Below, one piece after another: positions 759 to 14,241 of a stretch of DNA of 32,527 nt. The DNA lies in the IMG/VR virus record IMGVR_UViG_3300006865_000023, positions 1-32,527 of that record; one strand, given 5' to 3'. The stretch comes from a virus. Positions within the stretch are counted from its first letter, which is position 1; each line of letters opens with the position of its first letter. The notes beneath the pieces are model-generated. The model ran no database searches. It was given only the letters and a program-made list of their open reading frames with translations, and was not told where the DNA came from. Position numbers and translations under genes: made by a program.

Positions 759-894
759 TTTCTTTTTCGCACCAATGCGCGCGGCTTCGCTGAGAGAAGC
801 GCCGCGAAAACGTTCGAATTTGAGCCCGACGCCGATCGAGTTATCCGGAATGCGACAGCAGCAGGCGGTTCGACTCAAGAGAGCAGCTCACCGG

Positions 895-1254
895 ATGAGC
901 GACCGACAGACCGACATGATCACCGTTGTCCAATTCCCTCCGCACAAGTTCCGCCTCACCGAGACGGAGTTGTGCGGCTGGATCGGCCAAGCCGCGCCCG
1001 GTGAGGCGCTGGAGTACTACCGCGGCTTCCTCGCCATGGACACGTTTTCGCAAGCCAAGCGCCTGACCGAGCGTGAGCGCGCCGAACTCGTGCGTCTGGC
1101 GCGCCGCGCACGGTGGGCGAGCGAGCAGAAGCTAATCCACCTCGTTCAGCGCCGCCACGGCGCCGACGATTACAGCTATCTCGCAATTGCGCGCTCGAAG
1201 CCGAAGCAGGCCTCGGCGTCGCTGTCGTCGCTGCTCTTGGCGGAGGTCGCGTGA
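895..1254 (+). CDS. conserved hypothetical phage protein
   Basis: An unrecognised protein of about 119 residues. It begins MSDRQTDMITVVQF and contains a charged helical middle (TERERAELVRLARRARWASEQK) and a closing YLAIARSKP segment. In-frame ATGs also exist at 775, 850 and 916, and none has a strong Shine-Dalgarno. I chose 895 because conserved-looking sequence starts near there; the stop is not in doubt. It lies between the AlpA-like gene and a chain of overlapping small genes, so it is part of the early operon. No membrane segment or catalytic motif is visible. Confidence 0.6.
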   Translation: MSDRQTDMITVVQFPPHKFRLTETELCGWIGQAAPGEALEYYRGFLAMDTFSQAKRLTERERAELVRLARRARWASEQKLIHLVQRRHGADDYSYLAIARSKPKQASASLSSLLLAEVA

Positions 1255-1316
1255 TGGGCCGCAACCACCCCAAGCCGAGATTTCACGTCAGCACCAACGA
1301 AGAGGCCTCCCGATGA
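1254..1316 (+). CDS. possible 20-residue ORF linking two genes by stop/start overlaps
   Basis: The ATG at 1254 overlaps the preceding stop (TGATG) and the ORF ends at 1314-1316, overlapping the next ATG (ATGA at 1313). The peptide is short and basic (MGRNHPKPRFHV and onward). The double overlap would keep ribosomes moving from one gene to the next, so it may serve translational coupling rather than make a functional product. It could equally be chance. Confidence 0.35.
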   Translation: MGRNHPKPRFHVSTNEEASR

Positions 1317-1606
1317 CCACGTCAATTGCAGTGACCGCGCTGCGCAAGCGCCATATCTGGCTCGAAGCGCTGCCCGACACCGTTTCCATTCCGGCGCTCG
1401 AAGCTCGACAGCGTCCGGCCGCCGTCAAGTCGATCGAGGACGCCACGCTCGACGACATCGCGTTCGCGATGCTCGGCGCGGAGACGGAATTCAACGCCGT
1501 CGGCGACCGGCTGCATGCGCTGCGCAAGCTCTACAACCTCGCCCGCCAAGCCGGCGCGCTCGGTTCCGACCGCGCGGTCGATGCGATCTCCGAGGGAGGT
1601 CGCTGA
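1313..1606 (+). CDS. conserved hypothetical early protein
   Basis: A 97-residue, mostly helical protein that I do not recognise. The start at 1313 is supported by the Shine-Dalgarno-like GAAGAGG about 8 bases upstream and by the ATGA overlap. The middle (SIEDATLDDIAFAMLGAE) and the end (DRLHALRKLYNLARQAGALG) look like two amphipathic helices. It overlaps the ATPase gene by one base at 1606 and is therefore co-translated with it. No known motif is visible. Confidence 0.6.
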   Translation: MTTSIAVTALRKRHIWLEALPDTVSIPALEARQRPAAVKSIEDATLDDIAFAMLGAETEFNAVGDRLHALRKLYNLARQAGALGSDRAVDAISEGGR

Positions 1607-2439
1607 TGGCGCTGCGCATCATCACCGCCGATCAGCGGCTCGCCGAGGCGCATGCGAAGACCACGATGGCGATCTTCGGGCCCTCGGGTGTCGGCAAGAC
1701 CTCGCTGCTCAAGACCCTGCCGCCGGCGGAGACGCTCTGCATCGATCTCGAGGCCGGCATGAAATCGGTCCAGGACTGGCCGGGCGACAGCATCCCGGTG
1801 CGTAGCTTCGGTGACGCGCTCGACGTCGGCTGCCTGGTCGGCGGCGTCAATCCGGCGGCCGACGAGAAGACCTTCTTCTGCGAGAGCCACTACCGGCACC
1901 TCGTCGACGCATATCCCGACCTTGTCCGCATGATCGCCGGCAAGCGCATCATCTTCGTCGACTCGATAACCGACCTGACGCGGCTCGCCATGGTGTGGGC
2001 GAAGACCCGGCCCGAGGCGCAGTCGGAGCGGACTGGCAAACCCGATACCCGCGGCGCCTACGGTCTCCTGGCACGGGAAGCCATCGGGCTCCTGAAGCAC
2101 CTGCAGCACGCACCGGGTCGCACCGTCATCTTCGTCGGCATCCTGGAGCGCATCACCGACGAGTTCAATCGAGTCACCTGGCAGCCGCAAATGGAAGGCG
2201 GCAAGGCCGCCCGCGAGCTCCCCGGCATCGTCGACCAAGTGATCTCCATGAGCCGGTTCGCGGCGGAGGGCGACGCGTGGCGCCACGAGCCCGATCGCGG
2301 CGACGTGCGCCGCTTCGTCTGCCAGGCGGCCAACCCCTTCGGCCTGCCCGGCAAGGATCGCTCTGGCCGCCTCGACCTCACCGAGCCGCCCGACCTCAGC
2401 GCGCTCATTCGCAAGATCAACCAGCCCAGCAAAGGATGA
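1606..2439 (+). CDS. Sak4-like RecA-fold ATPase (phage AAA_24 nucleotide-binding protein)
   Basis: A 277-residue ATPase. Walker A GPSGVGKTS is at residues 25-33, Walker B IIFVDS at about 115-120, and a sensor-like VIFVGILERI lies further on. This is the architecture of the AAA_24 phage ATPases, which include Sak4-type single-strand annealing proteins: short RecA/Rad51 relatives that pair homologous DNA and often depend on a phage SSB. The next gene has the properties of such an SSB-like partner, and a nuclease and a helicase follow, which supports a recombination role. The start overlaps the previous stop by one base. The ATPase fold is certain; the Sak4 function is inferred from fold and context. 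Confidence 0.8.
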   Translation: MALRIITADQRLAEAHAKTTMAIFGPSGVGKTSLLKTLPPAETLCIDLEAGMKSVQDWPGDSIPVRSFGDALDVGCLVGGVNPAADEKTFFCESHYRHLVDAYPDLVRMIAGKRIIFVDSITDLTRLAMVWAKTRPEAQSERTGKPDTRGAYGLLAREAIGLLKHLQHAPGRTVIFVGILERITDEFNRVTWQPQMEGGKAARELPGIVDQVISMSRFAAEGDAWRHEPDRGDVRRFVCQAANPFGLPGKDRSGRLDLTEPPDLSALIRKINQPSKG

Positions 2440-2444
2440 CCACC

Positions 2445-3179
2445 ATGTTCGACATGAACGAAGCCGAGCCGCAGAAGACCGGCGAACTCATTCCCGATGG
2501 CACCTTCGCCAAGGTCACGATGAGCATCCGCCCCGGCGGTATCGATGGCCAGAGCGAGATCGATCAGGCGCTGCTCAAGGCGCCGAAGGACCCGTCCAGC
2601 GACGTGCGGATGCTCGACTGCGAATTCACCGTGGCGGAGGGACCGCACGCCAAGCGCAAGTTCTGGCAGATGTTCACCGTGCAGGGCGGCAAGGTCGACG
2701 AGAACGGCGTCTCGATCGCCTGGAAGATCTCCAAGAGCACCTTCCGCGCCATGATCGACAGCGCGCTCGGCCTCGATGCGCAGGACATGAGCGAGGCGGC
2801 CAAGCAGAAGCGCATCCTGCGCGGTCTCGCCGACCTCAACGGCATCACCTTCGTCGCCAAGATCAAGATCGAGGCGAGCGAGGACGCCCGCTACAGCGAT
2901 CAAAACCGCCTCGACCGCGTGGTGTTGCCGACCGAGAAGGAATGGAAGCTCGTCATGGACGGCAGGGACGTGCCGGTGAGCCCGAGCCGCTCGCGCGGCG
3001 CCGGCAGCAAGGCCGCGGCCGCGCAGCCCGCCTGGACGCAGGGGGCAGCCCAAGGCGGCCAGTCGTCCACCGCGTCGCGGTCACCGCAGGCGCCCAGCGC
3101 GCCCGCCTGGTCGCAACCGTCATCCGGCGCCGGCGCGCCGGCGGCAAAGCAGCCGGGTCCGGCGTGGCTCAACGGCTGA
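2445..3179 (+). CDS. DUF669-like / SSB-like DNA-binding protein
   Basis: A 244-residue protein. The N-terminal half has the beta-rich pattern of DUF669-type phage proteins (LIPDGTFAKVTMSIRPGG near residue 14, then FTVAEGPHAKRKFWQMFTV). From about residue 175 it becomes a low-complexity tail of Ala, Gln, Ser and Pro ending PGPAWLNG. A folded DNA-binding core plus a disordered tail is the plan of single-stranded DNA binding proteins. It follows the Sak4-like gene directly. AAAGGA at 2431-2436 places the start at ATG 2445; an in-frame ATG at 2436 overlaps the previous stop and is the alternative. SSB function is inferred from layout and neighbours. Confidence 0.65.
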   Translation: MFDMNEAEPQKTGELIPDGTFAKVTMSIRPGGIDGQSEIDQALLKAPKDPSSDVRMLDCEFTVAEGPHAKRKFWQMFTVQGGKVDENGVSIAWKISKSTFRAMIDSALGLDAQDMSEAAKQKRILRGLADLNGITFVAKIKIEASEDARYSDQNRLDRVVLPTEKEWKLVMDGRDVPVSPSRSRGAGSKAAAAQPAWTQGAAQGGQSSTASRSPQAPSAPAWSQPSSGAGAPAAKQPGPAWLNG

Positions 3180-3182
3180 ACC

Positions 3183-3416
3183 ATGACGGACGACGAATGG
3201 CAGGCGCACGTCGCGCATGAAGCGGCCAAGGCGATCGGCGAATGGCTCGAAGGAAGAGGACGGCTTCACCAGCCAATCCGCTCTTTGACCATGCCCGAGC
3301 TCGAGGCCATGGCGCAGAACGCCATCAGCCGCTTCATCGTGCTGGCGTCGCAGCGGATCGCGGAGGCACCCGACGAACCCGAGTCGCAGAAGCTCTCGAC
3401 GCTGCTCATGGGCTGA
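3183..3416 (+). CDS. conserved hypothetical small protein
   Basis: A 77-residue acidic, helical protein that I do not recognise (MTDDEWQAHVAHEAAKAI, then a helix MPELEAMAQNAISRFIVLA). It begins three bases after the SSB-like gene and ends overlapping the putative start of the DUF6511 gene. The position within the replication operon suggests an accessory role. No motif supports a function. Confidence 0.6.
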   Translation: MTDDEWQAHVAHEAAKAIGEWLEGRGRLHQPIRSLTMPELEAMAQNAISRFIVLASQRIAEAPDEPESQKLSTLLMG

Positions 3417-3757
3417 GAGCCTGTGCGCTCTGCGGTCGAGAGGCGCGCGGATTCTACTACACGCACCAACTGCGCCCGGAGCGATACCCGACCTTCGCCT
3501 TCTGCTCGCTCCGCTGCCTCAACGCCGGCGCCGCCATCGCCAAGAGGAACCACGGCATGATCGACAAGACCGAGCTGGAGATACAGGCAATCAAGGCGGC
3601 ACGGCGCAATCTTGCAGAGGTGCTGACCGAGCTCGGATTGATGGCGCCGTTCCATGACCGATCGGCCGAAGAGATCGATCGCATTATCGAGGCTTGTGTC
3701 GACGGCTTCCAGGCCGCGATGCACCGCGAAACGCTCAACGACGACATCCCATTTTGA
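3413..3757 (+). CDS. DUF6511 zinc-ribbon-like protein, apparent CTG start
   Basis: A 114-residue protein of the DUF6511 family, which has no known function and is common in alphaproteobacterial phage operons. A CxxC pair (CALCGRE, near residue 4) and a second pair (FCSLRC, about residues 29-33) form a likely zinc site before a helical C-terminal half ending HRETLNDDIPF. No ATG, GTG or TTG lies just upstream in frame. CTG at 3413 overlaps the preceding stop as CTGA, mimicking the usual ATGA coupling. The alternatives are ATG 3242, deep inside the previous gene, or ATG 3557, which would drop the cysteines. The family call is good; the start is uncertain. Confidence 0.65.
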   Translation: MRACALCGREARGFYYTHQLRPERYPTFAFCSLRCLNAGAAIAKRNHGMIDKTELEIQAIKAARRNLAEVLTELGLMAPFHDRSAEEIDRIIEACVDGFQAAMHRETLNDDIPF

Positions 3758-3765
3758 GGCCGGCC

Positions 3766-4533
3766 ATGGATGTCGTCGATCTCAACCACGGCTCCGGATT
3801 TGTGTACGGCATCGGCGCGCGCGAGGTGTCCGTTGCGCAGCGCGTCAACACACTGATCGATGCCGCTCTGTTGACGGCACGGCGCGAGCAGCCGGAACGC
3901 GATTACCTCGGTGCGTCGAGGCTGGGAGAGCCTTGCTGCCGCCGGCTCGCCTACGAAATCATCCACACGCCGCCAGATGATGGTCACGACCTCGACGGCG
4001 CCATGCCGCGGGTGTTCGAAGCCGGCCATCGGTTCGAGGCGTTGTCGATCGAATGGCTGCGCGCTGCTGGGTTTGATCTGAGAACGCAGCGCCGCGATGG
4101 CAGCCAGTTCGGCTTTGAGGCGGCCGGCGGGCGGCTGCGCGGCCACATTGATGGCGTGATCGTCGCCGGCCCTAATGTCGGCATCGCCTGGCCGGCGCTG
4201 TGGGAGCACAAGGCGCTCAACGCCAAGTCCTGGAATGACGTCGTCAAGCGCGGCCTTCGCGCCGCAAAGCCGCTCTATTTCGCGCAGGTCCAGATCTACA
4301 TGGCCTACATGGAGATCGGCGTCACGCTATTCAGCACGCTGAACAAGGACAGCCAGGCGCTCCACCACGAGGTGGTCGCCCTCGATCCCGCTGAAGCGCA
4401 GGCGCTCTCCGACAAAGCCGTCGAGATTCTGCGCGCCGTCGAAGCCGGCGAACTGCCGCCCCGCATCGCTGCGGCCTCGGACTATTACCTCTGCCGCTCC
4501 TGTCCCTACGCGCGGCGCTGCTGGGAGGAGTGA
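3766..4533 (+). CDS. PD-(D/E)XK nuclease, RecB/Cas4-like, with cysteine cluster
   Basis: A 255-residue nuclease of the RecB/Cas4 superfamily. GHIDG (D129) and WEHKA (E147, K149) are the acidic and lysine residues of the PD-(D/E)XK site, and FAQVQIYMAYM (from about 172) is the QxxxY helix. Cysteines at 57-58 and at 243, 246 and 252 (CRSCPYARRC) match the four-cysteine arrangement that holds an iron-sulfur cluster in Cas4 and AddB. Such enzymes resect DNA ends to make single strands. It sits between the annealing proteins and the helicase, so it probably supplies resected ends for recombination. No Cas genes or CRISPR repeats are present. Confidence 0.8.
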   Translation: MDVVDLNHGSGFVYGIGAREVSVAQRVNTLIDAALLTARREQPERDYLGASRLGEPCCRRLAYEIIHTPPDDGHDLDGAMPRVFEAGHRFEALSIEWLRAAGFDLRTQRRDGSQFGFEAAGGRLRGHIDGVIVAGPNVGIAWPALWEHKALNAKSWNDVVKRGLRAAKPLYFAQVQIYMAYMEIGVTLFSTLNKDSQALHHEVVALDPAEAQALSDKAVEILRAVEAGELPPRIAAASDYYLCRSCPYARRCWEE

Positions 4534-5830: not shown

Positions 5831-8773
5831 ATGCTCGACCTCAACGACGCCGAACCTCCACGACCGGCCGAGCGGTTTGATCTCGATGCCATCGTCGCGC
5901 GGCTGCGCGAGACCGCCGAGCATTGGGTGCCACGGCATTTCCCGAACGGCCGGCGGGTCGGCGATGAATGGCGGCTTGCCAATATCCGAGGCGATGCGCC
6001 GCGCAAGAACGGCTCCTGCGTGATTGCGCTCACCGGCGAGCACGCCGGCGACTGGATCGATTTTGATGGCGGCGAGGGCGGCGGACCCATCAACACGCTG
6101 GAGCACGCCATCCATCGCACCGGTCGCGAGCTGATCAGCTACGCGGCCGAACTGACAACGATAGGCCCGCAGCCGAAGCGGGGCGCCACCAAGCCCTCGT
6201 CCAAGCAGGCCGACCAGGCCCGTGAGATCGACCATATCCTCTCGAAGGCGGTGCCGCTCGCAGGCACGTTGGGCGAACGCTATCTCACGTCGCGCCGGCT
6301 GCCAGTTCCGGATTGCACGGACCTATTGTTCCACCCGGACCTGACGCATTGGGAGAGCCGGCGTGGCTTCCCGGGCCTGGTCGCGGTGGTGCGGGACGGC
6401 AGCAGCAATCGCATCGCGCTTCACCGCACCTATCTCGCCGACGACGGCAGTGCCAAGGCGCCGGTCAATAACCCGCGCAAAATGTTGGCCTCGATTGCCG
6501 GCGGCGCCGTGCGTCTTGCCAACCTGACCGAGGACCATGTCATCGGTCTCGCCGAGGGCATCGAGACTGCGCTCTCGGTGATGGCGGCCTGCGCACGCCT
6601 GCCGGTCTGGGCCACGCTCTCGACCTCCAACCTGGAGCAGGTCGTTCTGCCTGCCGATGCGCGGAAGGTCGTGCTTCTGGCTGACCACGATCCTTCCAGC
6701 GCGGGCGCGCGCGCTGCCGCGACCGCCGCCGCCCGACTGCACGCCGAGGGCCGCCGCGTCTTCATCGCCATGCCGCCCAAGGAGGGCGATGACTTCAACG
6801 ACCTGCTGATGCGCGAGGGCGCCGATGCCGTGCGCAGGGTCGTTGAGTCGGCGGTCGAGTGGAACGGCCAGGGCACCACAGAAAGCATGGCTCTCGTCGT
6901 CGACGGCGGCACCCACAGGCCAATTGGCCTCTCGCTGTCCGACGGCGCGCGACCGCAACTGCGCGCGGACAACGGCGATCTCGCCGCTGCGGTCTCGCAG
7001 GCCTGGCAAATCCTGCTCGCCGCCAACAATCCACCCTGGCTATTTCGTGCCGCCGGATGCCCGACCTGGGTGGTGCGCGACGACGACGGTTTGCCAATGG
7101 CGAAGCCGCTCACCGAGGATCGCTTGCGGCCGGTGCTCGCCCAGCTCGTCGATTGGCGGAAGATCAATCGCAACGGCGAGCTTATTCCGGCCCATCCACC
7201 CATGGCGGTAATCAAGTCGATCCTCGCCACGCCCGATCCGGCGCTGCCGGTGCTCGCCGGCATCGTCACCACGCCGGTGTTCGGCCGCGACGGCGAGCTC
7301 ATCACCGAGCCCGGCTACCATCCGGCGGCGCGTCTGCTCTACGACCCGCCAAAGGACTTCGTGCTGCCGCCCGTAGCCGCGCAGCCGACGCCGGCGGATA
7401 TCACTGCAGCGCGGTCATTGCTGCTCGACGATCTCCTGGGAGAGTTTCCGTTCACCGGCGAGGCTGAACGCGCGCACGCGCTGTCGCTGCTGCTTGTCGG
7501 CTTCGTGCGTGCCATGATCGACGGGCCGACCCCGCTGCATCTGGTCGAGAAGCCGACCCAGGGCACCGGCGCGACCTTGATGGTGGACGCAATATCGGTG
7601 ATCGCAACCGGCTGCCGCGCGAGCGTCATGGTCGAGGGCAGCGATGATGAGGAATGGCGCAAGCGCCTGACCGCCAAGCTGCGCCAGATCCCCTCCGTCG
7701 TGCTGATCGACAATCTGCGCCGTCCGCTCGACTCCTCGGCGCTTGCGGCCGCAATCACCGCGCCGTTCTGGGAAGACCGCATCCTCGGCGTCTCGGAAAC
7801 CACACGACTGCCAATTCGCTGCATTTGGATCGCCACCGGCAACAATGCTGAGTTCTCCGGCGAAATGGCGCGCCGCCTGGTGCGCATCCGGCTCGATGCT
7901 CGCGTCGACCAACCCTGGCGCCGCAACGGCTTCCGCCATCCCGATCTCATCGGCTGGGTTCATGCCAACCGGGCAGACCTCGTGGCCGCCTGCCTGTCGC
8001 TCTGCCGCGGCTGGATCGCAGCCGGCATGCCGCGCGGGGCTAAGCACATTGGCAGCTTCGAAGCTTGGGCCGCCGTCATGGGTGGCCTGCTCGAGGCGAT
8101 CGGCGTTCCAGGCTTCCTCGGCAACATCGACGAGATGCTCGAAGCCTCCGACGGCGAGGGCGCGGTCTGGCGCGTGTTCGTCGGGCAATGGTGGGATCGC
8201 TTCGGCACCGCCGAGGTCGGTACCAGCGGGCTCTACGAGCTCGCCGTCAACTGCGAACCGCCGCTTCCGCTCGGCACCGGCGGCGACCGGTCCCAGCGCA
8301 CGCGCCTGGGGAAGGCGCTCGCGCGCATGCGCGATCGGGTGTTCGACATCGCCGGACTGAAGGCGCGCATCCGGGCGATTGGGGTTTCCCATCAGGCGCG
8401 CCGCTGGCAGCTCACGCTCGAAGGGGAACATGGGGAACGTGGGGAACGTTTTCCGGACCCGTGCGAGGCAGAAAAAGGGGAACGTCAGGCCACTTCGGAG
8501 CAACGTTCCCCGCCACGTTCCCCGGCCTATCCCATTGATGTCGAAGGCGTCGGGGAACGTGGGGAACCTGGGGAACGTTTTTCCGACCTCCGCGCGTGCG
8601 CGCGCGTACACAATAATAAAGAAGAGCAAACACGTTCCCTACGTTCGTCACGTTCCCAAAATGGTGGTGGTTCAGATGCTTACGACGGGGAACGTGGCGG
8701 GGAACGTCAAAATGCACGTTCCCCACGTTCCCCGCTGAGTGAATCGCCCGATTGGCTGAAGGGGGTGCCGTGA
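5831..8773 (+). CDS. primase-helicase (DUF7146 + Toprim + AAA+ helicase-like)
   Basis: A 980-residue replication protein. The N-terminus (about 15-110) is a DUF7146-like domain. A Toprim primase domain follows near residues 235-340, with the catalytic Glu in GLAEGIETALS and the acidic pair in VVLLADHDPSSAG. After a linker, residues about 540-720 form an AAA+ helicase-like module with Walker B-like VVLIDNLRRPL, sensor WIATGNN and arginine-rich RRLVRIRL. The expected Walker A reads PTQGTGATLM, with alanine where lysine normally binds ATP. The final roughly 110 residues are low-complexity GER and RSP repeats encoded by a DNA repeat array. GAGG six bases upstream supports ATG 5831. It is likely the replication initiator and primase of the phage. 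Confidence 0.85.
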   Translation: MLDLNDAEPPRPAERFDLDAIVARLRETAEHWVPRHFPNGRRVGDEWRLANIRGDAPRKNGSCVIALTGEHAGDWIDFDGGEGGGPINTLEHAIHRTGRELISYAAELTTIGPQPKRGATKPSSKQADQAREIDHILSKAVPLAGTLGERYLTSRRLPVPDCTDLLFHPDLTHWESRRGFPGLVAVVRDGSSNRIALHRTYLADDGSAKAPVNNPRKMLASIAGGAVRLANLTEDHVIGLAEGIETALSVMAACARLPVWATLSTSNLEQVVLPADARKVVLLADHDPSSAGARAAATAAARLHAEGRRVFIAMPPKEGDDFNDLLMREGADAVRRVVESAVEWNGQGTTESMALVVDGGTHRPIGLSLSDGARPQLRADNGDLAAAVSQAWQILLAANNPPWLFRAAGCPTWVVRDDDGLPMAKPLTEDRLRPVLAQLVDWRKINRNGELIPAHPPMAVIKSILATPDPALPVLAGIVTTPVFGRDGELITEPGYHPAARLLYDPPKDFVLPPVAAQPTPADITAARSLLLDDLLGEFPFTGEAERAHALSLLLVGFVRAMIDGPTPLHLVEKPTQGTGATLMVDAISVIATGCRASVMVEGSDDEEWRKRLTAKLRQIPSVVLIDNLRRPLDSSALAAAITAPFWEDRILGVSETTRLPIRCIWIATGNNAEFSGEMARRLVRIRLDARVDQPWRRNGFRHPDLIGWVHANRADLVAACLSLCRGWIAAGMPRGAKHIGSFEAWAAVMGGLLEAIGVPGFLGNIDEMLEASDGEGAVWRVFVGQWWDRFGTAEVGTSGLYELAVNCEPPLPLGTGGDRSQRTRLGKALARMRDRVFDIAGLKARIRAIGVSHQARRWQLTLEGEHGERGERFPDPCEAEKGERQATSEQRSPPRSPAYPIDVEGVGERGEPGERFSDLRACARVHNNKEEQTRSLRSSRSQNGGGSDAYDGERGGERQNARSPRSPLSESPDWLKGVP
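8423..8733. repeat. bidirectional array of 16 GGGGAACGT-type 9-mers (candidate iterons/origin)
   Basis: Forward copies (GGGGAACGT, at most one mismatch) start at 8423, 8432, 8441, 8477, 8552, 8561, 8570, 8687 and 8699. Reverse copies (ACGTTCCCC and variants) start at 8503, 8515, 8632, 8641, 8650, 8716 and 8725. Two forward triplets are perfectly tandem and both are followed by TTTTCCG; one reverse triplet is tandem. An AT-rich stretch (8610-8631) lies between the forward triplet at 8552 and the reverse triplet at 8632. All forward copies share one codon phase and all reverse copies another, within the primase-helicase gene. Lambda gene O holds its origin iterons in a similar way. Origin function is inferred. 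Confidence 0.7.
8687..8733 (+). other. long hairpin formed by paired 9-mers
   Basis: Two forward 9-mers (8687-8695 and 8699-8707) can pair with two reverse 9-mers (8716-8724 and 8725-8733), giving 18 base pairs with a three-base bulge (GGC, 8696-8698) and an eight-base loop (8708-8715). It lies 40 bases before the primase-helicase stop. There is no T-tract after it, so it is not a standard terminator. It may be a cruciform or single-strand hairpin at an origin, or an RNA-stability element. Confidence 0.5.
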
Positions 8774-8820
8774 TGCCGCGCACCTCCGAGGCCGGATCGC
8801 TCCACGGAGGCGCGCCGTGA
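8773..8820 (+). CDS. possible 15-residue linking ORF
   Basis: The ATG at 8773 overlaps the primase stop (TGATG), and the ORF ends at 8818-8820 overlapping the GTG start of the next gene (GTGA). The peptide (MPRTSEAGSLHGGAP) has no recognisable motif. ACGGAGG (8804-8810), near its end, supplies a strong Shine-Dalgarno for the GTG at 8817. Its purpose, if any, is probably translational coupling. Confidence 0.3.
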   Translation: MPRTSEAGSLHGGAP

Positions 8821-9134
8821 GCCGGCAGCGCCTTCCCGATCGCAGGCCCAGCGTCACGACCACGTTCGTGCACGACTGCCGGTCCTATGCGGTGACGTTC
8901 GGCTTCGACCCGAACACCGGCCGCATCGGCGAGGTGTTCACGCACGGCGCCAAGATCGGCTCCGCCATGGACGGCATCCTCGACGATGCCTGCATCGCGC
9001 TCTCGCTCCTTCTGCAGCACGGCGTCGACCCCCCGGCGCTGGCCGCGAGCATGGGACGGCTCGGCGACGGCAAAACGCCCGCCTCCGTCATTGGTGCGCT
9101 TGCCGACCTCATCGCTCGTGAGGTGCAGCCATGA
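8817..9134 (+). CDS. stand-alone TSCPD-domain protein (ribonucleotide reductase C-terminal-like)
   Basis: A 105-residue protein resembling the TSCPD domain found at the C-terminus of vitamin B12-dependent ribonucleotide reductases. GRIGEVFTHGAKIGSAMDG corresponds to the conserved strand and turn, and ACIALSLLLQHGVDPPALAA to the long closing helix. In the reductase this domain is nucleic-acid- or metal-associated and not catalytic. Here it is a separate gene in a replication operon with no reductase gene in the window, so it may modulate the host enzyme or have another job. GTG start with strong upstream ACGGAGG. The family match is by eye. Confidence 0.65.
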   Translation: MSRQRLPDRRPSVTTTFVHDCRSYAVTFGFDPNTGRIGEVFTHGAKIGSAMDGILDDACIALSLLLQHGVDPPALAASMGRLGDGKTPASVIGALADLIAREVQP

Positions 9135-11204: not shown

Positions 11205-11604
11205 CAGAAGGCCCGCCATCGGCCATTAAACCGTTGATCTCTCGGTTCCTTCCTGGCGCCGAACGTATGCGGGGGGCAATGGCCCGGAATTTTGGCACTG
11301 ACAGGCAAAAATTTTGGCAAGCCACCGTGAGGGAAGCCACCGGGAACGTGGCCTAACGCTTTGAGAGCTTGCAGCTTTTTCGCCTGACATTGGTGGCTTC
11401 CAAGTGGCTTCCGGAGTCCAGCCCGGAATCCAGCGCATGGTGGCCGGGGCGCCATAACTATCGGACTTCACGAGACTTTCTTCACGCGGGGACTGGCCGA
11501 TCGCTTGGCTTCCAGAAGCCAGTCAAGAATCCACCTGGTCTCCACGCGCCACCACCACGCTGGTCCCGCCCGCGCGGTCGGTCACGAGCACGCCAACGAC
11601 AACG
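11205..11604. other. 400-base gene-free stretch with short repeats
   Basis: No convincing gene was found here; open frames on both strands have poor composition and overlap each other. GTGGCTTCC occurs at 11393-11401 and 11404-11412, and its complement GGAAGCCAC at 11332-11340, allowing a large stem-loop. AATTTTGGCA occurs at 11288-11297 and 11310-11319. The region divides the minus-strand higBA pair from the plus-strand methyltransferase genes, so it should hold a promoter for the late region or a small RNA, but no hexamers stand out. Confidence 0.4.
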
Positions 11605-13004
11605 ATGACAGTGCGCTTTGCGCCGGAACGAATCGAGCAGTGGCCACTCGACCGGCTCGTCGCCTATCCACGCAACCCGCGCACGCACTCCGATGGGCAG
11701 GTGGCGCAGATCGCTGCGAGCATGGTCGAGTTCGGATGGACCAACCCGGTCCTGGTCTCGCGCGAGGGCGAGGTGATCGCGGGTCACGGCCGGCTCGAAG
11801 CGGCAAGGAAGCTCGGGCTTGAGACCGTTCCGGTTGTCGTCCTCGATCATCTGACTGAGGCGCAGCGGCGCGCCTACGTCATCGCCGACAACAAGCTCGC
11901 GCTGAATGCCGGCTGGGACGAGGAACTGCTGGCATCCGAACTGCATGCACTGAACGGTGAGGGCTTCGACCTCGCGCTCACTGGCTTCTCGGAAACAGAG
12001 CTCGACGCCTTGATGGCGCCGCTCGGTGACGAAACCGAGACCGCCGATGGTGACGGCGCGGACGCCGCCGACGACATGCCCGTACCGTCGCGCGAGCCGG
12101 TCAGTCGCGTCGGCGATCTCTGGCTGATCGGAGACCATCGGCTGCTGTGCGGCGACAGCACCGATTCCTCGGTGGTGGCGCGCGTCATGAATGGCGAGCG
12201 CGCGACGCTCGTCTTCACATCGCCGCCTTACGGCAACCAGCGCGACTACACGACCGGTGGCGTCGGCGACTGGGACGCGCTCATGCAGGGCGTTTTCGCG
12301 GCATTGCCAGTCGCGGACTCAACCCAAGTCCTGGTCAATCTCGGGCTGGTCCACCGCGACAACGAATGGCAGCCGTACTGGCAGGACTGGCTCGGCTGGA
12401 TGCGCGAGCAGGGCTGGCGCCGCTTCGGGCTCTACGTCTGGGACCAGGGGCCCGGATTACCGGGCGACTGGAACGGCCGGCTGGCGCCGGCCTTCGAGTT
12501 CCTATTTCACTTCAATCGCAAGGCGCGCAAGCCCAACAAGATCGTGCCCTGCAAGTGGGCTGGCCATGTCAAGACACGCATGGCGGCATCCGCCACAAGG
12601 ATGGCCACGTCGGCGAATGGACGCACGCCGGCCAGGGCGTCCAGGACACGCGCATCCCCGACAATGTGATCCGCATCACGCGGCACAAAGCACGCGGTAT
12701 CGAAACCGAACATCCAGCGGTCTTCCCGGTGGCGCTGCCCGAGTTCGTGATGCACGCCTATAGCAACGAACGTGACGTCATCTATGAACCCTTTGCGGGA
12801 TCGGGCACCAGCATCATTGCGGCGGAGCGATGTGGCCGCCGGACGCGGGCAATCGAGCTCGCGCCCGAATACGTCGACGTCGCGCTGCGCCGGTGGCGCA
12901 AGCTCTTTCCCGATCAGCCAGTGAAACTCGATGGCGAAGGCCAAAGCCAAAGCTTCGAAGCGGTTGCGCGAGCGCGCGGGGTCGCAATTCCTGCCGATGA
13001 CTGA
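11605..13004 (+). pseudogene. ParB-like nuclease domain + DNA methyltransferase, frameshifted
   Basis: The N-terminal ParB/sulfiredoxin-like domain (residues 8-110; VIAGHGRLEAARKLGL and the ADNKLALNAGWDEE signature) is followed by a beta-class DNA methyltransferase with SPPY (FTSPPYGNQRDY) as motif IV. At 12573 the frame breaks. The -1 frame then gives DTHGGIRHKDGHVGEWTHAG and the SAM-binding motif I EPFAGSGTSIIAAE, to a stop at 13002-13004. Adding one G after AAG (12571-12573) makes one gene of about 466 residues. As it stands the product stops at 12669 without motif I and should be inactive. Such fusions occur near terminase genes in alphaproteobacterial phages and may protect or mark phage DNA. 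Confidence 0.85.
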
Positions 13005-14241
13005 GGCGCTGCAGGTCGAGCTCTGGCCGATCGATCGGCTGCTGCCCTATGCGGCGAACGCCAGGACCCATCCCGACGAGCAGATCGGGCAGATCGCCGG
13101 CTCGATTGCGGAGTTCGGATTCAACGTTCCGTGCCTCGTCGACGACCGCGGCGTGCTGATCGCCGGTCACGGTCGAATTCTCGCAGCCAAGCGGCTCGGC
13201 CTGCAGCAGCTCCCGGTCATTCGGCTCGGCCATCTGACTGACGCGCAGGCGCGCGCGTTCCGGCTTGCCGACAACCGGATCGCACTCAATGCCGGCTGGG
13301 ATGATGCGCTACTGGCGGCCGAGCTCGATCGACTCAGGGAAGATGGGGTCAACCTCGAGCTGCTCGGCTTCGCTGAGGACGAGCTCGATCGCTTGCTCGA
13401 TGGATTTGATGCGGGCGAAGCAGCCGAGGGCGAGGACGACGTTCCGGAGCCGCCCGCCGAGGCGATCACCCGGCCCGGCGACCTCTGGCTGCTCGGGCCG
13501 CATCGCCTCCTCTGTGGCGACGCGACGGCTGCGACCGATGTCGAGCGGCTGCTGGACGGCACCAGTCCGCACCTGATGGTGACGGACCCGCCCTATGGGG
13601 TCGAATACGACCCGAATTGGCGCAACGAGTCCGGCGTCTCTTCGACGGCGCGCACCGGCAAGGTCAACAACGACGACCGCGCCGATTGGCGCGAGGCGTG
13701 GAGTCTGTTCCCCGGCGAGGTCGCTTACGTCTGGCATTCGGGGATCTATGCGCGCACCGTGGCGGAGAGTCTCGACGTCTGCAGTTTCTTGATCAGGGCA
13801 CAGATCGTATGGGCCAAGCCTCGCCTGGTGCTTTCCCGCGGCGATTACCACTGGCAGCACGAGCCGTGTTTCTATGCGGTGCGCAAGGGTGCAACCGGCC
13901 ATTGGCAGGGCGCCCGCGACCAAACGACACTCTGGACCATCGCCACCGGCGAGAACGACGAGGCCACCGAACACGGGACGCAGAAGCCGATCGAGTGCAT
14001 GCGCCGGCCGATCCTCAACAACAGCAAGGCTGGCGATCTGGTCTACGAGCCGTTTGCCGGCAGCGGTACCACTCTGATTGCAGCGGAGAGCACTGGCCGT
14101 GTCTGTCTCGCGTTGGAGATCGACCCACGCTATTGCGACGTGATCGTGGAACGGTGGCAGCATTTTACTGGCGGCAAGGCTGTCCGCGAGGCTGACGGCA
14201 TTTGTTTCGAAGAGCTCAAATCGGGGCGAGCAGCGGCATGA
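12997..14241 (+). CDS. ParB-like nuclease domain + DNA N6-adenine methyltransferase
   Basis: An intact relative of the gene before it. The ParB-like domain (LIAGHGRILAAKRLGL, ADNRIALNAGWDDA) is followed by a methyltransferase with DPPY (VTDPPYGVEYDPNW, motif IV) and EPFAGSGTTLIAAE (motif I), the beta-class order, predicting adenine-N6 modification. ATG 12997 overlaps the upstream stop region by 8 bases; an in-frame ATG at 12931 would add a basic stretch and a 74-base overlap. The two adjacent genes look like an old duplication with different motif IV (SPPY or DPPY), hence perhaps different targets. No cognate restriction gene is seen. Confidence 0.88.
   Translation: MTEALQVELWPIDRLLPYAANARTHPDEQIGQIAGSIAEFGFNVPCLVDDRGVLIAGHGRILAAKRLGLQQLPVIRLGHLTDAQARAFRLADNRIALNAGWDDALLAAELDRLREDGVNLELLGFAEDELDRLLDGFDAGEAAEGEDDVPEPPAEAITRPGDLWLLGPHRLLCGDATAATDVERLLDGTSPHLMVTDPPYGVEYDPNWRNESGVSSTARTGKVNNDDRADWREAWSLFPGEVAYVWHSGIYARTVAESLDVCSFLIRAQIVWAKPRLVLSRGDYHWQHEPCFYAVRKGATGHWQGARDQTTLWTIATGENDEATEHGTQKPIECMRRPILNNSKAGDLVYEPFAGSGTTLIAAESTGRVCLALEIDPRYCDVIVERWQHFTGGKAVREADGICFEELKSGRAAA

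Follow-up and report, generated by a model that had tools for sequence, protein, structure and literature searches.

The window analyzed here is a stretch of 32,527 nucleotides (positions 1 to 32,527 of IMG/VR virus record IMGVR_UViG_3300006865_000023), in which the 3′ end of a primase-helicase gene carries an array of 9-bp elements of the GGGGAACGT type in both orientations. The gene, its relevant domains, and the elements of the array are given below in window coordinates, together with the evidence for each.

5831 to 8773, + strand: primase-helicase gene, 980 aa, with DUF7146 and Toprim_3, a D5/SaPI-Rep-like AAA+ helicase, a C-terminal winged helix, the translated iteron tail, and a W-L tip (Pfam, AF2)
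8168 to 8416, + strand: C-terminal winged-helix domain (residues 780 to 862), putative reader of the iterons (AF2, fold matches, covariation)
8288 to 8314, + strand: recognition-helix residues R820 (8288 to 8290), T824 (8300 to 8302), and K828 (8312 to 8314), paired with word positions 6, 7, and 8 (covariation, AF2)
8390 to 8398, + strand: wing-tip residues H854, Q855, and A856, paired with word positions 3 and 5 (covariation, AF2 hairpin turn)
8423 to 8449, + strand: forward iteron triplet 1 (copy scan)
8477 to 8485, + strand: single forward iteron (copy scan)
8503 to 8523, − strand: two reverse iterons with 12-bp spacing (copy scan)
8552 to 8578, + strand: core forward iteron triplet (FFF-RRR core in 89/131 loci)
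8579 to 8631, no strand: core spacer, consisting of a TTTTTCC flank, an alternating pyrimidine-purine tract, and the A+T/purine-rich AATAATAAAGAAGAG (alternating-run statistics, 89 loci)
8632 to 8658, − strand: core reverse iteron triplet, degenerate here with 1, 2, and 1 mismatches (copy scan)
8687 to 8707, + strand: two forward iterons with 12-bp spacing (copy scan)
8716 to 8733, − strand: two tandem reverse iterons (copy scan)
8744 to 8770, + strand: conserved C-terminal tip ending PDWLKGVP, 3′ of the array (115/127 ORFs)

Pfam assigned DUF7146 and Toprim_3 to the primase half of the protein. For the remainder, we modeled residues 377 to 862 with AF2 (mean pLDDT 85), and the top PDB match of this model was SaPI PriRep1 (7pds; Foldseek E 1.1e-7), other matches being NrS-1, poxvirus D5/E5, ASFV PrimPol, and SCCmec Cch. 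The D5/SF3-like AAA+ helicase core was recognizable at the fold level only (TM about 0.4), and PDB sequence searches with the helicase and DNA-binding domain profiles returned no meaningful match. Residues 780 to 862, when modeled alone, formed a winged helix with the order H-H-H-E-E-E (pLDDT 92.8), in which the recognition helix spans residues 819 to 835 and the wing turns at 854-855; in the larger model, the helix covers 819 to 833. More specifically, residues 820, 824, and 828 occupy one face of the recognition helix, and residues 854 to 856 form the tip of the wing. Fold searches with this domain matched generic winged helices only, all with Z under 7.

The array comprises nine forward and seven reverse copies within 311 bases (8423 to 8733), as a sequence-only reading of this DNA had counted; 15 of the 16 are within one mismatch of GGGGAACGT, and 11 are exact. 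Forward copies start at 8423 (GGGGAACAT), 8432, 8441, 8477, 8552, 8561 (GGGGAACCT), 8570, 8687, and 8699, and reverse copies at 8503, 8515, 8632 (1 mismatch), 8641 (2 mismatches), 8650 (1 mismatch), 8716, and 8725. Most of the layout proposed in that reading was recovered as well: the reverse copies at 8632, 8641, and 8650 form a tandem triplet, the segment between the opposed triplets is AT-rich (A+T of 0.54 at 8600 to 8650 versus 0.22 to 0.42 in the other 50-bp blocks of 8200 to 9000), and the codon phase within the gene is 0 for every forward copy and 2 for every reverse copy. Its two tandem forward triplets are also present, within a common 37-nt unit of 89% identity, but the first is followed by TTTTCCG and the second by TTTTTCCG, so that the tail said to be the same in both differs by one base.

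To place these counts, we scanned the whole 32.5-kb window and obtained 19 matches with at most one mismatch; dinucleotide shuffles averaged 7.1 ± 2.7, and none of the 100 reached 19. Fifteen of the 19 fall within 8423 to 8733, the remaining four are isolated, and no second array was present in the window at this threshold. Permuting the synonymous codons of the array (500 shuffles) yielded at most 13 matches and 8 exact copies, versus 15 and 11 observed. Thus, as permuted codons never reach the observed count, the synonymous codons in the array are not free. Mapping of cumulative GC skew, another proposal of the earlier reading, revealed a local turn near 8 kb and no global extremum at the array, which is a weak signal.

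Relatives of the gene were gathered by protein searches from viral contigs and alphaproteobacterial genomes, and an automatic word finder was run on 141 distinct loci, 131 of which were usable. Because the finder required the form xGxGxxxxT, the invariance of G2, G4, and T9 was imposed and is not a result. At the 3′ end of the gene, nearly all of the about 140 loci have 9-mer copies arrayed in both orientations, and most loci have 10 to 17 of them. Thirty different words occur among the 131 usable loci, including GGGGAACGT, GGGGAATGT, GGGGAGTGT, GGTGAATGT, GGTGGACGT, and TGTGAACCT, as well as TGTGAGCCT, TGGGGACCT, TGGGGGTCT, GGGGGGAGT, and CGTGAGGGT. Within each locus, forward and reverse copies are one and the same word, with changes appearing as reverse complements, and the forward peptide GER becomes GEC, CEP, WGP, GED, or WGS in relatives. 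Since all copies in both orientations take the new word whatever peptide results, it is the DNA and not the peptide that is conserved.

The most regular part of the array, found in 89 of the 131 loci, consists of a forward triplet, a spacer of 51 to 69 bp (92 bp in one locus), and a reverse triplet. The longest alternating pyrimidine-purine run in the spacer averages 24 nt across these 89 loci, as against 6 nt in equal windows of the same genes, and is flanked by TTTTCC and GGAAAA in most of them. Alternating pyrimidine-purine tracts can leave the B-form under superhelical stress; by composition, the core spacers of the window (8579 to 8631) and of its relatives are Z-DNA-prone.

To identify the reader of the word, we tested each column of the helicase for association with each position of the word, using locus pairs matched on the divergence of residues 377 to 770; the association set omitted five poorly fitting loci (L097, L099, L118, L127, and L131) and five partial ones, and is biased in that respect. 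The matched association was 0.88 for position 3 with residue 854, 0.95 for position 5 with 856, 0.79 for position 6 with 820, 0.77 for position 7 with 824, and 0.64 for position 8 with 828. Cross-tabulated, these pairs come near to a code. At position 3, G occurs with H854 (93/94) and T with Q/R854 (36/37). Similarly, A at position 5 goes with A856 (105/106) and G with S/T856 (23/24); A at position 6 goes with R/K820 (99/100) and G with Q/H/N820 (30/30); and C at position 7 goes with T824 (94/99) and T with I/V824 (18/18). At position 8, G is paired with K/R828 (75/77) and C mostly with I/M/A828. On a tree of residues 377 to 770, word and residue changed on the same branch in 14/18, 12/12, 10/11, 14/21, and 12/16 cases for positions 3, 5, 6, 7, and 8, respectively. 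Three of the omitted loci, L097, L099, and L127, form a divergent sublineage in which the recognition helix is altered and the words lie close to GTGTGAGGT/GTGTGAGGA; their S856 occurs together with A at position 5, which breaks the simple position-5 rule.

Five controls were assessed for comparison, namely DUF6362, a Sak4-like protein, an exonuclease, an AAA_30 helicase, and the primase half. For positions 3, 5, 6, and 7, their best columns reached 0.15 to 0.54, versus 0.69 to 0.99 for the domain residues at the same loci, and the pairing of position 8 with residue 828 is partly confounded by lineage, with neighboring proteins reaching 0.80. The DUF6362 neighbor was also considered as a reader and rejected, given that its best columns lie well below the helicase residues at positions 3, 5, 6, and 7 (at position 8, the value is 0.80). 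We then applied the code derived from the first 131 loci to a held-out set of 27 loci with new arrays, obtained from two further scans. All five letters were given correctly in 23/27, compared with 16/27 when the word of the nearest core relative was used, and the code was right in 8 of the 11 loci for which the nearest core relative fails. As for the four misses, L342 was read by the finder in the wrong register (the TGGGGACGT of this locus agrees with the code), L231 has a mixed array of seven TGTGAGCCT and three TGTGAACCT, L238 carries L828, which was rare in training and miscalled, and L278 carries S828, which was absent from training. From this residue-base covariation, the likely reader of the word is the C-terminal winged helix of the helicase itself, which favors the earlier suggestion that the array may be bound by the product of the gene in which it lies.

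Several loci indicate how reader and array change. In the window's clade, the loci with I824 (L014, L016, and L065; T824 otherwise) have arrays that mix GGGGAACGT and GGGGAATGT, as if the reader had changed first and conversion of the array were under way. Some pairs of helicases are 98 to 99% identical over residues 377 to 770 and only 60 to 82% identical over 800 to 862, and have different words. Such near-identical helicases with different words thus differ mainly in the winged-helix domain, the pattern expected if reader and array were exchanged as a cassette, so that the two also travel as a single module. Contig L057 bears two such genes on opposite strands (889 to 3801 and 11448 to 13204), each with its own word and the matching residue 828: K828 is found with GGGGAACGT and M828 with GGGGAACCT, words that differ at position 8. 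Locus L052 (355 to 1131) has two arrays with different words within one gene; the second array (CGTGAGGGT) mismatches the reader residues of that gene and may be a leftover of cassette exchange. Separately, some bacterial genomes carry two such elements (locus pairs L096/L134, L132/L135, L138/L142, L063/L064, and L079/L087), three pairs differing in word and two sharing it, numbers too few for judging incompatibility. That incompatibility or origin-directed nucleases might select for word change is offered as a suggestion only.

More distant helicase relatives have short-repeat arrays in both orientations that are noncoding and follow the helicase stop codon. These belong to Streptomyces plasmids (L218, L222, and L225), Azospirillum (L221), and the archaeal virus vir525 (L223), and are candidate origins of these elements. 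Directly after its stop codon, Azospirillum has three copies of AGTGGGTTT, 76 bp, and three inverted copies. No clear array was seen at the end of the gene in four other distant helicase relatives (MD18, RcXuper, Methylobacterium pMt-1, and a Cereibacter plasmid). Judging from this distribution, absorption of a downstream origin into the reading frame would be the most economical history.

We consider it highly probable (roughly 0.86) that the array is an iteron-type replication origin located inside the gene of its own initiator and read by the C-terminal winged helix. The sequence-only reading had likewise placed an origin within the primase-helicase gene, and the conserved place of the array, the concerted words, and the residue covariation all argue for it. 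In the mechanism we propose, the winged helix (residues 780 to 862) would bind the 9-bp word as duplex DNA, with helix residues 820, 824, and 828 reading positions 6, 7, and 8 and wing residues 854 and 856 reading positions 3 and 5. The opposed triplets (8552 to 8578 and 8632 to 8658), aided by the single and paired sites around them, would direct the assembly of two helicase oligomers in opposed orientation on the intervening strand-opening segment, which is alternating pyrimidine-purine plus A+T-rich, after which priming would fall to the Toprim half. In addition, the array is translated as a sequence-tolerant linker to the conserved W-L tip. Reader and sites change together because they are adjacent within one gene, either by point mutation followed by array homogenization or by exchange of domain and array as one cassette.

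Other functions for the array have to be weighed against this one. That the repeat is selected as a GER/RSP peptide, building a charged protein tail, is a reading to which we give almost no credence, even though the tail is translated: nearly all loci keep an open frame across the array, both other frames have stops in 95% of loci, and W-[LM]-x(1-5) (PDWLKEVP type) forms the C terminus, after the array, in 115 of 127 ORFs. As the frame runs through the array to this conserved tip, the putative origin doubles as a linker, and the earlier idea that array and protein tail may be selected together holds in that the tail is also used as protein. The repeat, however, is not a peptide feature. Relatives keeping the peptide with freely varied codons, which the earlier reading had named as refuting an origin, would have spoken for it, and the opposite was found, namely, uniform DNA words in both orientations with widely differing peptides. 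In addition, GGGGAACGT lies in other reading frames where a DnaG-type primase is fused to a homologous helicase (36% identity; L054). Together with the constrained synonymous codons and the noncoding arrays of distant relatives, these observations led us to reject the repeat-peptide explanation. An element acting at the RNA level, with the opposed triplets folding into an mRNA hairpin to control translation or stability, is very improbable. The triplets could indeed pair (30-nt arms, 83% complementary, in the window), and deviations mirrored between the two arms of the core are in slight excess (31 in 71 distinct arrays, versus 22 on average and 28 at most in shuffles), which may reflect templated correction. 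Nevertheless, the covariation maps to a winged helix of double-stranded-DNA type, copies outside the stem carry the identical word, there was no Rfam match, and in other phyla the array is still present beyond the stop codon.

A further alternative shares the binding step with the favored reading: the winged helix may bind the array as a control or titration site (copy number, handcuffing, or autoregulation) or as an element like the P4 crr, with replication starting elsewhere. P4 itself has two separate regions of type I iterons, ori and crr, and the weakness of the GC-skew signal would also suit such a site. We regard it as unlikely, although the least so of the alternatives, given that the window has no second array and only isolated matches elsewhere, that the symmetric triplet-spacer-triplet and its conserved spacer are in keeping with an origin, and that Azospirillum has a minimal FFF-76 bp-RRR unit after the stop codon. 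An origin read by its own initiator thus remains the preferred reading.

We also lean, with less assurance, toward a broader reading, in which phage and plasmid replicons of one widespread class would share a single evolving code for origin recognition. The winged helix would read xGKGRNNNT, and the reader with its translated origin would form a self-matching cassette, swapped as a unit and changing replicon identity, perhaps escaping incompatibility or origin-targeting defenses; the word would be predictable from the protein alone. Initiator-iteron specificity has usually been studied replicon by replicon, and here more than 130 natural reader-word pairs are available. The mixed, transition-like arrays and the two-gene contig (K/M at 828) make the protein-DNA recognition code directly testable, together with the way in which initiator and origin change jointly without loss of function. 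If the reading is true, the origin word can be predicted from protein sequence alone. For many alphaproteobacterial prophages, as well as some Streptomyces plasmids, the analysis also supplies candidate origins of replication, and it reveals an origin-like array inside a conserved reading frame.

No description of this system was found in the literature searched, and the papers listed by a search with the 9-mer were unrelated; several known systems are nonetheless alike in part. In lambda, the initiator gene O contains both iterons and a strand-opening tract (PMC7466680). Here, too, iterons lie in the coding sequence of the putative initiator (8423 to 8733 in the ORF at 5831 to 8773), but this protein is itself a primase-helicase; the 3′ end of its gene is where the array lies, with copies in both orientations, and most of the spacer alternates between pyrimidine and purine. 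In PLEs, the DNA-binding domain of the RepA_N initiator covaries with the origin as an exchangeable module, and the origin-mimicking nuclease Odn of ICP1 supplies selection for change (PMC8263062); the protein family here is a different one, and an Odn-like pressure on the present phages is a suggestion only. The C-terminal domain of SaPI Rep recognizes iterons directly downstream of its gene, as stated in an account that cites Ubeda 2007 (PMC7581432). SaPI Rep/Pri-Rep, like SCCmec Cch2, resembles the putative initiator helicase of the present system in having short iterons at or directly after the 3′ end of its gene, the array being inside the gene in the window family and after the stop codon in the five distant loci. 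Unlike in SaPI, the array of the window family is within the frame and translated, with a conserved C-terminal tip after it, the primase half is of the Toprim type, and a residue-base correspondence emerges from about 30 words; identity to SaPI PriRep1 in the structural alignment is about 12%. The P4 initiator alpha is also a Toprim primase-helicase, and the type I iterons of P4 (GGTGAACA) occur in both orientations. For the helicase and DNA-binding region, no homology to alpha was detected (hhalign probability 0.3%, at an Neff of about 2 that leaves room for a remote relation), and the P4 iterons lie outside alpha. The P4 crr is directly 3′ of the alpha gene, some of its copies are 9 bp apart, and GGTGAACA resembles GGTGAACGT, a word found among the present loci.
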